From the NCBI GenBank assembly GCA_903822595.1, contig CAIJPS010000020.1:1-64000 (forward strand): a DNA stretch of 64,000 bases. The letters run 5' to 3'. The stretch's first letter is position 1; each line of letters starts with the position of its first letter. Under the pieces are notes generated by a model. It ran no database searches. It was not told the DNA's origin and worked only from the letters and a program-made list of their open reading frames with translations. Below are positions 684-6,727 of the stretch, in pieces. A program made the position numbers and the translations under genes. The stretch comes from an uncultured Chlorobiaceae bacterium (GTDB lineage: Bacteria; Bacteroidota; Chlorobiia; Chlorobiales; Chlorobiaceae).

Positions 684-1934
684 TCAGTTTGTTTTGAGAT
701 CAAGCGAGCGGCTTGTGGCAATAAGGGCTGCCTTTCGTGCGGGATAGAGGCTTACCAGAAAACAGAGCAGGATTGCGGTGATGCTGACAGTAATAAAATC
801 GCCAGCTTGCATGTTTATCGGATAGGCCTGGATGATAAAGGCGCTTTTAGAGGGGAGTTGCACAAAGCCGTTGAGTTCCTGGAGTTTGCAGATGCTCCAT
901 GCAATGATTGTTCCTGCGGCAGTTCCTGCGATTCCGGTTATCCCTCCCTGAATGATGAAAATGGCCATGAACTGCGGCTTTTCCATTCCAAGGCAGCGGA
1001 GATAGAAGAGTTCGCGCTGTTTGTCGATGGCGGTCATGGCAAGAGCTCCGGTTAAGCTGAGGGCAGCAACAAGGATAATAAGCATCAGAACGCTGAAACT
1101 CACCCATTTTTCGAGCTGCATAACAGCGAAAATGTTGCTGTATTTTTCATCGAGGGTGCGCACCCGGAAGCTTGTTTTCAGGGGGCTACGAGCCAGCCAT
1201 TTCCTGAGGTTTTCGCTGAAGGTATCACCCGAGCCGTCCTCTTTTCCCCTGATATCAATACCTGAATACTCTCCCCTGCCCATGAGCAGGATTTTTTGGG
1301 CGAAGAGAGCAGAGGTGAGAACATAGCGGTCATCAAATATTTTCTGGAGGGAAAAAAGTGATGAGACGGTGGTTTCGGGAATGCCGAGCATTGGAATGAG
1401 GTAGGGTTCCGACAGCGATTCAAGGCCAAGAGAGATCAGTTCCGGGCTGAAAATCTTGACCTCTCTGAAGGGGTAGAGGTTTGTCCTCAAAGCCAGAAGT
1501 TCTCCGACGGCTATGGTTTCGGGCGTGAAAAAGGGGCGTGTTGCGTGGGTCTGACGCATTAACCTGCGCTGAGCCGCTTCGCTGACTCCTTTTACAATGA
1601 TCAGTTCGCTTTTCTCTCTGGTGGCCAGAATGGCCTCTCCTTCGGCAAACGGCTCTGCAGATCCGACGCCTTCGATTGCTCTTATTGATTGCAGGATGTT
1701 GTCGGATACCTTCATGGTTTTTCCGTCAAGAGGAATAAACTGAACGGGGCTGTCGATGGTGATGAAAAGATCCCGTGCAAGTTTCTGGAATCCGTTCAAA
1801 ACGCTCATGACCACAAGCAGCGTGCTGACGCCAAGAACGATTCCGGCAAGACTGATTGCTGAGATGATGTTGATTACCCTGAACCGTTTTCGGGCAAAAC
1901 TGAACCGTTTGGCAATCCATAAACCTGTTTTCAT
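684..1934 (-). CDS. LolC/LolE-family ABC transporter permease
   Basis: A 416-residue inner-membrane protein of the lipoprotein-releasing (LolCE/FtsX-MacB) permease family. The N-terminus has a basic start ([11 protein letters not shown]) and one membrane helix at about 22-43 with the typical VVMSVLNGF motif. A large periplasmic domain follows to about 270, then three helices near 275-300, 325-347 and 375-398. Family members, with a LolD ATPase, extract lipoproteins from the inner membrane and pass them to a periplasmic carrier. It lies 23 bases downstream of a second permease (1958-3232) on the same strand, so the two may form a heterodimer. No LolD-type ATPase is encoded in this window. Exact substrate is inferred from family only. 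Confidence 0.85.
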
Positions 1935-1957: not shown

Positions 1958-3232
1958 TTAGGCGCCCAATGCAGTTCCGGGTTTCAGCGAGGCAGCAATC
2001 CGTGCCGGAATAAATGCAAAGAGCAGGGTGAGAGCCATCACTGAGATGGAGACAAGAGCATAGTCCATCGGATTGATCAACAGTGGAACATATTTGATGA
2101 AATAGCTTTTTTCGGGCAGGGTGATGAGATGAAAGCGCAACTCGAAGAGCGAGAGCGAAAGGGCAAGAATGTTGCCGGTGACCACTCCGGCAAGTGAGAT
2201 CAGGAAGGCTTGTGCCATGAAAACAATGCTGATTTTACCGGGTTCAAGTCCGAGTGCGCTGAGCATGCCTATTTCACGGGTTTTTTCAATAATCAGCACC
2301 AACAGCGTTGAGATAATGTTGAAAACAGCTACGATGGTGATGGTGACAATCAACAGTGGCGTAATGTTTTTCTGAAGCTTGAGCCATTCAAAGAGATTGG
2401 CATAGCGCTGAAACACCGTATAGCCATAAAAGGGAAATCCAAGAACATTAACCACCTCTTTGACGGTGTTTTGCAGTTGGTTGAGGTTGTGCACGTTGGC
2501 ATCGTAGCCGCTGATCATCATGGGATTGAATCGCTGCTGAAGCTGTTTCAGGTCGGCGATGACAACAAAATCATCAAATCCCTCCTGAAGCCCTGTATCG
2601 TAGATGCCGCGAATCTCTCCAACCTCCAGATCAAGGGAGGAGAGCATGTCGACAATGTTTTTGTTGCCTGCAATAAGTTTGGCGCCCGACGCCTTGCTTC
2701 CAAGGCCGACGAGCATCACCTTTTTCCCTACTCTGAGATCAAGATTTTCGGCCAGCGTCTGACCGGCGTAGAGTGCTATACCGGTAACATTATCTTTCCC
2801 TTCAAGGCTTCCTGCCCGAAGAAATTGTTTCAGAAAGCCTCTCTTTTCCTTATAGCTGACTCCCCTGACGACAACGGGTTTGCTGTGCCAGATTTTATCA
2901 TCGCCTTTAGCACTGCGGCTTCGAAGCACAAAACTTTTTTCCAGAAAGGGTGAGGCGTTTGCAATGTTCGGGTTATCGGCAATCCGTGTAAGATCGATGC
3001 GGCGTTCCTGAAAAAACTGCTCGTCGGGATGGCGGATCTGCATATGGGCGCTGAAGCTGATCAACTTGTTTTCCACACTGCCGGCAAATCCGTTCACAAT
3101 CGAGAGTGTCAGAATAAGGGCGGCTGTTCCGACGGCGATACCGATAACGGCAACCATAACGATAAAGGTTGGTTTCGTTGCCGAACGCTGTTTGAATGCA
3201 AAGCGCCTTGCAATGTAGAACTCGGGTTTCAT
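1958..3232 (-). CDS. LolC/LolE-family ABC transporter permease
   Basis: A 424-residue permease with the same architecture as its downstream neighbour: N-terminal helix at about 22-45 (ending [17 protein letters not shown]), large periplasmic domain, and a C-terminal bundle of three helices from about 290, including a segment rich in I, T and V followed by [21 protein letters not shown], the conserved FtsX-domain loop. The start codon overlaps the stop of the diguanylate cyclase gene upstream by four bases (ATGA), so it is probably translationally coupled in the operon spanning 684-5455. It probably pairs with the 684-1934 product. The energising ATPase must be encoded elsewhere. Confidence 0.87.
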
Positions 3233-4521
3233 CCCGTTTTACTGTTTTGACTGTTCATGGAGAGAAAGGTTACCACGTTGTTCCTTCCGGTAGATTTTGC
3301 CTTGTAGAGTGCCCTGTCGGCATTGTTGACCAGGTTATGCCAGTCAGCAGCATCAGCGGGGAACGTAGCAATGCCGATACTGACCGTGAGCTTTCCGGCT
3401 GCCTGATGCTCTTCATGCGGGAAAGATTTGTCGCTGATAATCTTGCGCAGGCGTTTAGCTATTTCGTATGCTGTATCGGTATCTGTTTTTGGAAACAGCA
3501 CAGCAAACTCTTCACCACCAAAGCGTGAAGGAACATCGTATGCCCTGCATTGCATGCTGATGATATCGGCGAGCGCTTTAAGGGCCCGGTCACCTGCCAT
3601 ATGACCATTGGTATCATTGTAGCGTTTAAAGTAATCAATATCGATCATGGCAAGGGAGACCTGTTCACCAAGTCGCTTCGAGCGTTCAACCTCTATAATC
3701 AAATGCTCCTTGAAATGGCGGTAGTTATAGAGATTTGTCTTTTCGTCTCGAATATGAAGTTCATTAAGCTTTTTGTTTTTGGCTTCAATATCACCGCAAA
3801 AACTCATGATTGAGCGGGTAACCTGGGTGATGTCGCTGGAGTACTCTGTATCAGTCAACTCTTTTTTCATCTCTTCGGCGGTATCGCGAATACTCTCAGG
3901 AATGTTTTTGTTGATTAGTTTTAGCTGTCCGGCAAGCTGGGAAAGAGGAATGAGTGTCTGGCGGTAATTGTTGTGAAGCATCCATCCTGCAGTGATGCTC
4001 AATGTCAACAGTACGGCAAGAATAAATAACAGAAAAAATTCGTTGATGACAACAAGTTTGACTGAGGCATCTTTTGATTCTATTTTGGCCTTTTCAATGC
4101 TCTTTTCCAGGTCAAGTCTCAAGAGTTCAAGATTTTCTCCGGCCAGCAGTGTTGGCCAACTCTCTCTTGTGAGGTTCATTGATGCAAAAGGTTGAAATCC
4201 AGCCTCATGCATCTCATTGAGAAGTTTTTCGTACACGAAGAGCAGTACTTCGGAATGTTGCTCGTTTTTTATTGCCAACTCTTCCGCTGCAACATTCAGG
4301 GATTGTTCAGGATTCCTCGACATTTCGAACTCAATGAGTTTGCCTCTGAAATCAACCAGGTCAAGGTAGCAAGCCTGTTTTTTTTCAACCGCCACAAGAA
4401 GGTTGTGCTGTGTCAAAAAAAAGCCTGCTGTACCGGCTATAACAATGAGTAAACTGATTGTTCCGGTAAAGACAATGGCTTGTAACGGTGAGATTTTTTT
4501 AATGGTAGGCCAAGCGATCAT
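3229..4521 (-). CDS. membrane-bound GGDEF diguanylate cyclase
   Basis: A 430-residue signalling enzyme that should make cyclic di-GMP from GTP. Membrane helices lie at about 15-37 and 158-182 and flank a periplasmic helical domain of about 120 residues. A linker (183-255) leads to a complete GGDEF domain (256-420). The active site reads GGEEF (335-339), and an RxxD inhibitory site (RAYD, 326-329) sits five residues ahead, so both synthesis and product feedback inhibition look intact. DxxxF (DIDYF) and NxxxGHxxGD motifs are also present. It lies 7 bases after a PstS-like lipoprotein gene and overlaps the Lol-type permease gene by four bases. The periplasmic domain is a plausible sensor, and the neighbouring binding protein is a candidate partner (inference). 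Confidence 0.9.
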   Translation of the reverse strand: MIAWPTIKKISPLQAIVFTGTISLLIVIAGTAGFFLTQHNLLVAVEKKQACYLDLVDFRGKLIEFEMSRNPEQSLNVAAEELAIKNEQHSEVLLFVYEKLLNEMHEAGFQPFASMNLTRESWPTLLAGENLELLRLDLEKSIEKAKIESKDASVKLVVINEFFLLFILAVLLTLSITAGWMLHNNYRQTLIPLSQLAGQLKLINKNIPESIRDTAEEMKKELTDTEYSSDITQVTRSIMSFCGDIEAKNKKLNELHIRDEKTNLYNYRHFKEHLIIEVERSKRLGEQVSLAMIDIDYFKRYNDTNGHMAGDRALKALADIISMQCRAYDVPSRFGGEEFAVLFPKTDTDTAYEIAKRLRKIISDKSFPHEEHQAAGKLTVSIGIATFPADAADWHNLVNNADRALYKAKSTGRNNVVTFLSMNSQNSKTG

Positions 4522-4528
4522 TATACAG

Positions 4529-5455
4529 TTATTTCAGAATAATTGTTCGTTCAACAAGCCTGAAAGGGGCAATCGTGCTTCTTTCGAATGCTTTTTGCCC
4601 TGAACTACTGCCGAGCCACGAACCAAACCCTATAGCAAGCCCGTCGCCGGGACAATATACATAGTAAACAGTTGTAATAAGGGGGTATCGTCCTTCAAAG
4701 ATATTTTGCTGGGTTGGCAGATATGCCGCCGTACGGTCCCCCTCTATTGTGAGAGGAACTATCCTGATGTTTTTATCTCTTTTTCCCTCTTTAAGTGCAA
4801 TAGTGAGTCCTCTGTCGAGCGAGGAGCGGAAAAGCAGGCCGACAGCCCTGTTGTCGACAGAAACTCTTTCGATCAGTTCAGCCTCGCTGTTGCATGCCCA
4901 AGGGTGCAAATCCCCTCTTTTTTTCCCCGTTTGTGCTGCAAAAACAGAGAGAAGTCGAAAATCATCAGCGATGACCAGAGGGGTCACTCCCCCCTTTCCC
5001 TGTTCTGAAAAAATGGTAACAAGCTCTTCGATTGAGAGTTTGATGGCTGAATTATTGTTATTGACAATGCAGACAATGGCATCGCGGGCAACTGGTTCAC
5101 GACGAATCGTCCGTTTCAGTTTTGAAAAAAGCGAGTCTTCTGCAGCTTCAGGTTCACCGCTGATCAATGCTGCATTTACCTTGCCATCAAGAAGATTTTT
5201 CAGGCTTTTTCTGGACGCGTCAGGTCGCAGAATTATCTTCGCATCTGGATAATATCGGCTGAACATCTCTGTCTGACTTCCGGCAATCTCCTCAAGCTGA
5301 CGATCAACCGCAAGGGTCATGCTTCCGCTTTTGGCGGTTTCGCTGGCTGGCTGCTGAGTGCAGTTCAGCAATAAAAACGCAGGCCAAAGAAACAACAGAG
5401 AGCTTATGACCTTACAGAGGTCTCTATGAGTGGCTTTTCTTTTCATGGTCATCAC
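4529..5455 (-). CDS. PstS-like periplasmic substrate-binding lipoprotein
   Basis: A 308-residue protein with a hydrophobic N-terminal signal (about 17-31) ending in a lipobox-like LLLNC (Cys32); Asn just before the Cys is atypical. The remainder resembles PstS/PBP-like phosphate-binding proteins: an N-terminal strand (MTLAVDRQLEEI), ALISGEPEAAE, the AIVCIVNNNN segment (family members have VNP-N-), an LSIEELVTIFSE helix, and a C-terminal YPLITTVYYVY strand like the YP-----YI motif. No pst transporter genes are adjacent. Instead it is first in an operon with a diguanylate cyclase. It may therefore act as a ligand sensor rather than a transporter component (inference). Ligand unknown. Confidence 0.75.
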   Translation of the reverse strand: MMTMKRKATHRDLCKVISSLLFLWPAFLLLNCTQQPASETAKSGSMTLAVDRQLEEIAGSQTEMFSRYYPDAKIILRPDASRKSLKNLLDGKVNAALISGEPEAAEDSLFSKLKRTIRREPVARDAIVCIVNNNNSAIKLSIEELVTIFSEQGKGGVTPLVIADDFRLLSVFAAQTGKKRGDLHPWACNSEAELIERVSVDNRAVGLLFRSSLDRGLTIALKEGKRDKNIRIVPLTIEGDRTAAYLPTQQNIFEGRYPLITTVYYVYCPGDGLAIGFGSWLGSSSGQKAFERSTIAPFRLVERTIILK

Positions 5456-5686: not shown

Positions 5687-6727
5687 ATGGCGGCACTTGT
5701 ACCAGAGAGTTCGACAAAGTATTCAGTATCAATAATCGGAGCTTCCGGTTATTCCGGAGCTGAGCTGACGAGACTGCTGCTGCTTCATCCGAATGTCGAG
5801 CTGCAGGAGTTGTATGCTTTTTCCCAGGCAGGTAAACGTGTTTCGGAACTTTATCCTCTCCTTTCCTGCGACAAGCTTTACAAGCCTTACAGCGGAGAGA
5901 CTGAGAGTGATGTTTATTTTCTTGCGTTACCCCATGGTGAGGCTCTGCAACTTGTTCCCCCTCTTGTAGAGGCAGGCAAAACTGTTATCGATCTTTCAGG
6001 CGACTTCAGGCTGAAAAGTGTGATTGAGCATGAGCAGTTCTACAAACAGACCAAATCTTCTGACTCTGTGATGACCTACGGCATGGCAGAATTGTTCCGC
6101 GACGAAATCATCAAGGCAAAGGCGATCAGTAATCCCGGCTGTTTTGCTACGAGCATCATTCTTGGTGTTGCGCCGCTTTTTTCTTCCAATGAGGGTGGAA
6201 TCAAGGTTCGTGCAATCAACTGTACTTCCACGTCCGGTATTTCAGGAGCGGGACGAAGCAGCAAGACCGAGTTGTCGTTTTCGGAGATGAGCGAAAATGT
6301 CAGGGCTTACAAAGTTGGTGTTCATCAGCATATTCCTGAAATCATGCAGGCTCTCGGTACCTCCGCTTCCAATCCGTCATTTGATTTTACCTTTACACCG
6401 ATGATTGGTTCTTTGGTGAGGGGTATTTACAGTATTCTTAATGTTCAATTGGAAAGCTCTCTTGACGTTGAGCGAATCAAGGTGCTCTACCATCGCTTTT
6501 ATCCAAAAAAAAGGACTCCATTTGTCAGGGTTCGCGACGCCATGACCGAAGTCAGACATGTTGCCCATACCAATTTTTGTGATATTCACATCGCTCATGC
6601 CACCGCTACTGGTTCGCTGGTAATCGTCACCGCGATCGATAATCTTCTGAAGGGCGCTGCCGGGCAGGCAGTTCAGAATATGAACCTTATGCTCGATCTG
6701 GGTGAAACAACCGGATTGTCGTTTTAA
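5687..6727 (+). CDS. argC: N-acetyl-gamma-glutamyl-phosphate reductase
   Basis: A 346-residue NADP-dependent reductase for the third step of arginine synthesis, turning N-acetylglutamyl phosphate into the semialdehyde. The N-terminal Rossmann motif is [21 protein letters not shown] (residues 14-34 region), the catalytic cysteine is Cys152 in NPGCFATS, and the His of HQHIPE follows. Length is normal for the short bacterial type. It is the first gene of the run argC-J-B-F-R-G on the plus strand. The 230-base upstream gap separates it from the divergent PstS-like gene, so the operon promoter probably lies there. ArgR is encoded downstream and is the likely repressor. Confidence 0.97.

Follow-up and report, generated by a model that had tools for sequence, protein, structure and literature searches.

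What is a gene for a phosphate-binding-protein-like lipoprotein doing directly ahead of a gene for a membrane-bound diguanylate cyclase, at a place where no phosphate transporter is encoded? The question is raised by a stretch of 64,000 nucleotides (the window) from an uncultured Chlorobiaceae bacterium (positions 1 to 64,000 of contig CAIJPS010000020.1, assembly GCA_903822595.1), whose draft genome comprises 3.04 Mb in 109 contigs. Four minus-strand genes of the window, spaced 7, -4 and 23 bases apart, encode a PstS-like binding protein (PBP), a predicted transmembrane diguanylate cyclase (DGC) and two permeases of the LolC/E type, LolC_a and LolC_b (Table 1). The initial annotation of this sequence had read the first two as a receptor, in which a ligand-bound lipoprotein touches the periplasmic helices of the cyclase and sets its output of cyclic di-GMP (c-di-GMP); it had missed two LolC/E-type permease genes, one whose start lies 4 bp inside the end of the cyclase gene and a second that follows. 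The gene pair is real and its arrangement is old, and the dedicated receptor is partly supported. A better account, to which we give even chances, is that of an envelope operon from which the cyclase is separable, with a membrane-tethered PBP that has its own job and may also be coupled to the cyclase; the dedicated receptor is disfavored by comparison.

Conservation and separate loss of the two genes

The order was surveyed in 98 genomes, with the PBP found in 93 (E up to 0.001) and the cyclase in 84 (E up to 1e-30); the pair was counted as adjacent when both genes lay on the same strand within 2 kb. By this measure the two genes adjoin in 46/65 genomes of the genus, 20/21 of the sister genus and 8/12 of other families (74/98 in total), and the co-occurrence search that the initial annotation had proposed thus finds the opposite of a pair that is rarely adjacent in relatives. 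The remaining 24 genomes comprise 12 with the PBP only, three with a cyclase match only, two with neither and seven with both but apart; for three of these seven (G051, G055 and G066) the cyclase match is another GGDEF protein. The order PBP-DGC-LolC(-LolC) recurs in the family and in the other families, where two tandem PBP genes precede the cyclase in loci with the pair. In one genome (G040) the locus is present twice.

It is worth considering that such constancy may reflect only a common operon preserved by slow rearrangement, its products not cooperating. Inside the family the argC-like gene beside the PBP gene is an equally constant neighbor, and PBP and cyclase have each been lost without the other, as this explanation would allow. 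However, argC was not found in the fetched out-family stretches that carry the pair and the PBP-DGC-LolC order, so the link between PBP and cyclase outlasts the argC neighbor; this, together with the tight spacing of the window genes, leads us to consider co-transcription alone unlikely.

The evidence that carries our reading comes from genomes in which the cyclase is absent. Fifteen of 17 such genomes retain the PBP, and in 14 of them it runs on into LolC_a (13 genomes, and G034 after 138 bases); in 10 of the 11 cyclase-less genomes that group next to the window genome, 2 bases separate the PBP stop from the LolC_a start. Remnants of the cyclase persist at some junctions: a trace of its end in G063 and G065, a piece of its periplasmic part fused to its last residues in G034 and, in G038, a PBP that terminates in a tail resembling those last residues. 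On a tree of ArgC and LolC_a (62 rows), eleven cyclase-less genomes adjoin the window genome, and G034, G038 and G065 lie in another clade among cyclase-bearing species; the best tree needs five state changes, with several forks open and the direction of change not shown. The remnants at the junctions indicate loss, not gain, and we count no fewer than three deletions, and probably four, of an ancestral cyclase gene within the genus. An assembly gap as the source of the absence is eliminated by the continuous junctions and the remnants, though not for G043 and G085 (86% complete): both genes are absent from these two, whose drafts may just lack this locus. Replacement of the cyclase by another output enzyme was also considered; none was seen in 13 cyclase-less loci, where LolC_a comes next.

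These losses bear directly on the proposal that the PBP is a dedicated co-receptor, which would bind a small ligand, dock on the periplasmic helices and set the output of the cyclase in the manner of NspS-MbaA. The adjacency of the genes in 74/98 genomes, and in 8/12 from other families, whose fetched stretches showed no argC, speaks for it; the retention of the PBP in 15/17 cyclase-less genomes speaks against it, as does the lack of any significant relaxation there. Specifically, the rate of the PBP does not rise significantly without the cyclase (p 0.59 for the PBP/LolC_a ratio and 0.12 for PBP/ArgC, in 6 versus 11 pairs that are few and partly overlapping), and the PBP/ArgC ratio is not higher in cyclase-less pairs (median 1.45 versus 2.03; clade sums 1.85 versus 2.65 and 1.50). 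Likewise, a search for the footprint of an interface found 0/39 conserved PBP positions released in 14 cyclase-less genomes, with 2/42, 0/40 and 4/44 in control clades. In addition, the cyclase occurs without a PBP gene in G023 and G067, and second copies of it (paralogues) lack a PBP neighbor in G033 and G060.

The G033 paralogue, in a cluster (L095:3015-10195) beside a transposase, has a GAF-HD_5 protein on one side and a YaiO-like outer-membrane barrel on the other. The cluster also encodes an epimerase/GDP-mannose-dehydratase-like enzyme, a family 2 glycosyltransferase and a protein with HEAT repeats. This suggests that exopolysaccharide may be an output of this kind of cyclase.

A PstS fold without the phosphate segments

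The AlphaFold2 (AF2) model of the PBP, built from 21 sequences, is closest to phosphate-binding proteins (root-mean-square deviation 2.5 over 230 residues of 4gd5; Table 1), and its PBP_like_2 domain is recognized with an E-value of 1.2e-26. It is with this domain and fold that its resemblance to PstS ends: the score against the curated PstS family TIGR02136 is 37.9 bits, far below the cut-off of 206.6, the neighborhood lacks pstCAB, and the phosphate segments are gone. In PstS, the segments GSTS, SSxG and SGT contact the phosphate; aligned to 4gd5 and to the genome's own PstS, these read VDRQ, SRKS and FRL in the window PBP (the profile consensus at the SGT place is YRL). The residue at the serine place of GSTS (Asp51 in the window) is acidic in all 94 homologues from the order, and at position 51 a wider alignment of 35 sequences shows 29 with Asp, four with Ser and two with Ala. 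The initial annotation was right that no pst transport genes stand beside the pair; the window genome has a PstB above the curated cut-off on contig C41, and two PstS proteins on other contigs that retain GSTT and SGT, one of which was aligned beside the PBP family. Phosphate sensing is therefore rejected as the default role of the PBP: it has other residues in place of all three phosphate segments, and ordinary PstS proteins are encoded elsewhere in the genome. The replaced segments also count against a dedicated co-receptor. Given that the PBP is usually kept where the cyclase is deleted, and given the loss of its phosphate site, it is probably not just the receptor of the cyclase.

The N-terminus of the PBP indicates where it may work. 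A Cys near the place of Cys32 is present in 60/61 genus homologues; the residue before it (-1) is Asn in 30 of the 60, which is unusual for a lipobox. All 21 PBPs of the sister genus begin instead with a hydrophobic stretch (a transmembrane helix) between basic residues and lack a lipobox, although one has a Cys further on, and within the genus G046 has an N-terminus of the same kind, hydrophobic and without a lipobox. An inner-membrane tether is the simplest common reading of these N-termini, and since the tether in the sister genus is an N-terminal transmembrane helix, the outer face of the inner membrane is where the PBP would probably act. Such a tether would also suit a co-receptor.

It is informative to examine the company that the PBP family keeps elsewhere. 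Its profile matches 219/296 genomes of the phylum, our order included (E up to 1e-12). Twenty stretches of phylum relatives were fetched, 18 of them with a visible PBP open reading frame (ORF), and Pfam was run on ten proteins. In one Bacteroidota stretch (L299) it confirms ExbB, two ExbD, TonB and a tetratricopeptide (TPR) protein around the PBP, in the order ExbB-ExbD-ExbD-TonB-PBP-TPR; partial clusters are confirmed in L298 (ExbB and TonB), L297 (TonB) and L306 (a TPR protein), and other stretches show ORFs of like sizes, matched by size only, while some (L303 and L304) differ upstream. In G086, two PstS-like genes lie directly behind genes for MlaE, an ABC ATPase, MlaD and a TPR protein (L074:1135-7105). 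These ExbB/ExbD/TonB and Mla neighborhoods thus show the PBP family accompanying envelope transport genes, with no fixed partner.

The cyclase as a putative sensor

The description of the second gene in the initial annotation holds in its particulars. The protein has two hydrophobic segments with about 112 residues between them (some 120 had been estimated), and five residues separate its intact I-site from its intact active site. It carries GGDEF (E 1.3e-45) without EAL. The arrangement RxxD-5-GG(D/E)EF is present in the window cyclase and in 74/76 homologues examined, the exceptions being G071 (contig end) and G016 (frameshift); the G016 gene (L093:4938-6272) shifts frame directly after the active-site GG, either a broken enzyme or a sequence error. 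From these motifs the cyclase should make c-di-GMP, with product feedback at the I-site, and its architecture of two transmembrane segments, a helical periplasmic part, a HAMP-like linker and an intact GGDEF domain fits a sensor.

Pfam names no periplasmic domain in the window cyclase; matches to 4HB_MCP_1 and CHASE3 in out-family homologues are weak and below the cut-off, and the HAMP-like linker rises above the Pfam cut-off in only one out-family homologue. A comparison of the model with the PDB was dominated by GGDEF domains and barely probed the periplasmic fold. The periplasmic part has a tree length of 21.2, versus 7.7 for the cytoplasmic part, and only 9/130 scanned positions of the periplasmic region are 85% conserved. 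The helical periplasmic part and the HAMP-like linker are what a co-receptor partner might possess, but the scarcity of conserved positions tells against a docking site for one.

Covariation within the operon

Covariation gives no support for a specific interface between PBP and cyclase, yet no proof against one. By partial distance correlation among the 53 genomes passing filters, PBP and LolC_a are correlated at 0.56-0.58, PBP and the periplasmic part of the cyclase at only 0.02-0.03. Branch-rate residuals (46 genomes, 89 branches) computed on an Arg-gene background give 0.55 for PBP-LolC_a and 0.26 for PBP and the periplasmic part, the lowest of the operon pairs, which is a further point against the co-receptor. 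When all seven genes form the background, positive covariation is seen in few gene pairs, as would be expected if the genes were merely co-transcribed. Both mirror-tree and rate covariation are crude; periplasmic distances are large, and rate covariation depends on the background chosen.

In sum, a dedicated co-receptor strikes us as possible but doubtful, the adjacency, the tether and the form of the cyclase being set against the losses, the replaced segments and the weak covariation.

GGDEF proteins and c-di-GMP readers

A search of the genus with PF00990 found matches in 60/65 genomes (E up to 1e-10). Leaving out of the census six genomes in which the locus is missing or cut (G043, G056, G067, G071, G072 and G085), 39/45 genus genomes with the locus cyclase have no other GGDEF match; other matches occur in 13/14 genomes without the locus cyclase versus 6/45 with it (Fisher p 8e-8, ignoring kinship). 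Contig-end fragments inflate some of these counts (for example in G063). The window genome has three GGDEF matches (coordinates noted for its GGDEF content: G000:C20:3277-3750), and no EAL (E 0.001), PilZ or MshEN match was found in it.

An organism that has a single cyclase and, should the window genome be representative, none of the common c-di-GMP readers offers a good place to ask what purpose the signal serves and how a single periplasmic input works. Where the cyclase was lost naturally, close relatives that retain it provide a ready-made comparison.

Features of the locus

Table 1. Genes and protein features of the operon and its upstream border, in window coordinates.
Feature	Position	Strand	Basis
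PBP, PstS-fold (PBP_like_2) lipoprotein-like protein, 308 amino acids	4529..5455	-	Pfam PF12849 94.5 bits; AF2 model pLDDT 85.9; Z 25.4 to phosphate-binding protein 4gd5
Cys32 codon of PBP, putative lipidated Cys (LLNC)	5360..5362	-	Cys near this place in 60/61 genus homologues
Asp51 codon of PBP, acidic residue at Ser place of PstS GSTS segment	5303..5305	-	alignment to 4gd5; D 90 / E 4 of 94 order homologues
DGC, transmembrane diguanylate cyclase (predicted), 430 amino acids	3229..4521	-	Pfam GGDEF 155.5 bits; two transmembrane segments; AF2 pLDDT 80.9, pTM 0.43
Transmembrane segment 1 of cyclase, residues 10-38	4408..4494	-	hydropathy scan
Periplasmic helical part of cyclase, residues 39-150, fast evolving	4072..4407	-	helices in AF2 model
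Transmembrane segment 2 of cyclase, residues 151-183	3973..4071	-	hydropathy scan
I-site RAYD of cyclase, residues 326-329	3535..3546	-	motif read in sequence
Active-site GGEEF of cyclase, residues 335-339	3505..3519	-	motif read in sequence
LolC_a, LolC/E-type permease a	1958..3232	-	start overlaps cyclase stop by 4 bp; TIGR02212 187.7 bits (cut-off 362)
LolC_b, LolC/E-type permease b, 23 bp after LolC_a	684..1934	-	TIGR02212 190.2 bits (cut-off 362)
argC-like gene, divergent, upstream border of unit	5687..6727	+	ORF; adjoins PBP gene in family loci reaching that far

LolC_a and LolC_b are the two best LolCE matches of the window genome, and both score below the curated cut-off of the LolC/LolE family (188 and 190 bits versus 362). 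LolC_b was not found in stretches L196, L198, L199, L201, L203, L207, L210, L072 and L073, in which LolC_a is present. The gene that borders the unit, which from its sequence we take to be argC, begins 231 bases from the PBP gene. A scan of the locus for promoters and terminators returned nothing above shuffled sequences, and a scan of genome contigs with a single protein as query returned no match. Among 80 loci from an alignment search with the cyclase, the best are from Chlorobiaceae (Chlorobium ferrooxidans, a Pelodictyon luteolum metagenome-assembled genome and Chlorobaculum thiosulfatiphilum included). The genus of the window genome would accordingly seem to be Chlorobium in the wide sense, and the sister genus Chlorobaculum.

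A proposed envelope operon with a separable cyclase

Taken together, the four minus-strand genes may be pictured as an old envelope operon of this green sulfur bacterial order. The PBP would have retained the PstS fold, lost the phosphate segments and been tethered to the membrane; its main job would be independent of the cyclase and would probably lie with envelope machinery, LolC/E here and TonB/ExbBD or Mla in relatives. The cyclase, whose domains are evident and whose activity we infer from them, would be a transmembrane sensor that turns a periplasmic or membrane state into c-di-GMP. Where both proteins occur the PBP may modulate the cyclase, the coupling being optional. Loss of either gene can leave the other in place; usually it is the cyclase that goes, and usually in lineages with further GGDEF proteins.

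Several observations weigh against the separable cyclase in its envelope operon. This analysis provides no physical link of the PBP to LolC/E, and against the all-seven-gene background PBP-LolC_a covaries at only 0.11, which is not significant (PBP and the periplasmic part of the cyclase stand at -0.40). The PBP/LolC_a rate ratio has a median of 2.38 in cyclase-less pairs versus 1.49, with clade sums of 2.53 versus 2.04 and 1.87. A sister-genus genome without the cyclase (G007) shows no LolC_a behind the PBP in the stretch seen, and four out-family genomes carry PBP and cyclase apart. The link between cyclase loss and other GGDEF proteins depends on a small number of independent events: a kinship-corrected test had too few independent pairs and gave no significance, and G079 lost the cyclase and has no other GGDEF match. 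Finally, G023 and G067, one small lineage, keep the cyclase without a PBP gene; G067 (98% complete) has no PBP match, and its cyclase, truncated by a contig end, shares 84% identity with the G023 protein. In a further genome, G056, nothing matches the PBP and a fragment of a cyclase lies at the start of a contig. In G023 the PBP place, which holds no trace of a PBP, is occupied by a gene (L099:6939-8072) that is presumably Fic-like, a name that comes from its sequence alone.

One can imagine a bolder version, in which a ligand-free descendant of a phosphate-binding protein reports, at the inner membrane, the state of lipoprotein or outer-membrane transport by LolC/E to what is mostly the sole GGDEF protein of the genus. 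We regard this as a long shot; if it were true, c-di-GMP in green sulfur bacteria would be a read-out of envelope traffic.

Comparison with known systems

The control of cyclases by binding proteins is already known; what would be new here is the PstS-fold, membrane-tethered partner and the LolC/E-type genes. In the titles and abstract openings of the literature on PstS, on Chlorobium and green sulfur bacteria and on LolCDE with diguanylate cyclases or c-di-GMP (PMC1183210 included), no such operon appears. Solute-binding proteins have been described as receptor partners (PMC9602780).

Within the fold family, PstS shares with the PBP its fold and the PBP_like_2 domain, but the PBP differs in the three replaced segments, the low TIGR02136 score and the lack of an adjacent pstCAB. 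The Bacteroidota PstS-like proteins, relatives by profile search, have Asp at the Ser place in 12/18 aligned, but they have other neighbors, and most show an N-S-(S/G)-like segment where the Chlorobiaceae differ.

Among signaling systems, YfiBNR of Pseudomonas aeruginosa, in which a periplasmic regulator and a lipoprotein control a membrane cyclase (PMC3375315), likewise places a lipoprotein together with a transmembrane cyclase within a single unit of envelope signaling. However, the window cyclase scores 123.9 against the DgcN/YfiN family NF007423, where the cut-off is 325, and the partner here has a PstS fold. A precedent, and a point in favor of a co-receptor, is NspS-MbaA of Vibrio cholerae, a periplasmic binding protein and a membrane GGDEF-EAL protein encoded by overlapping genes (PMC8967002). 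There, as here, the gene for the binding protein adjoins that for a membrane c-di-GMP enzyme. In contrast to that system, the PBP of this operon is PstS-fold and membrane-tethered, the enzyme lacks EAL, LolC/E-type genes follow, and in most losses the PBP outlives the enzyme.

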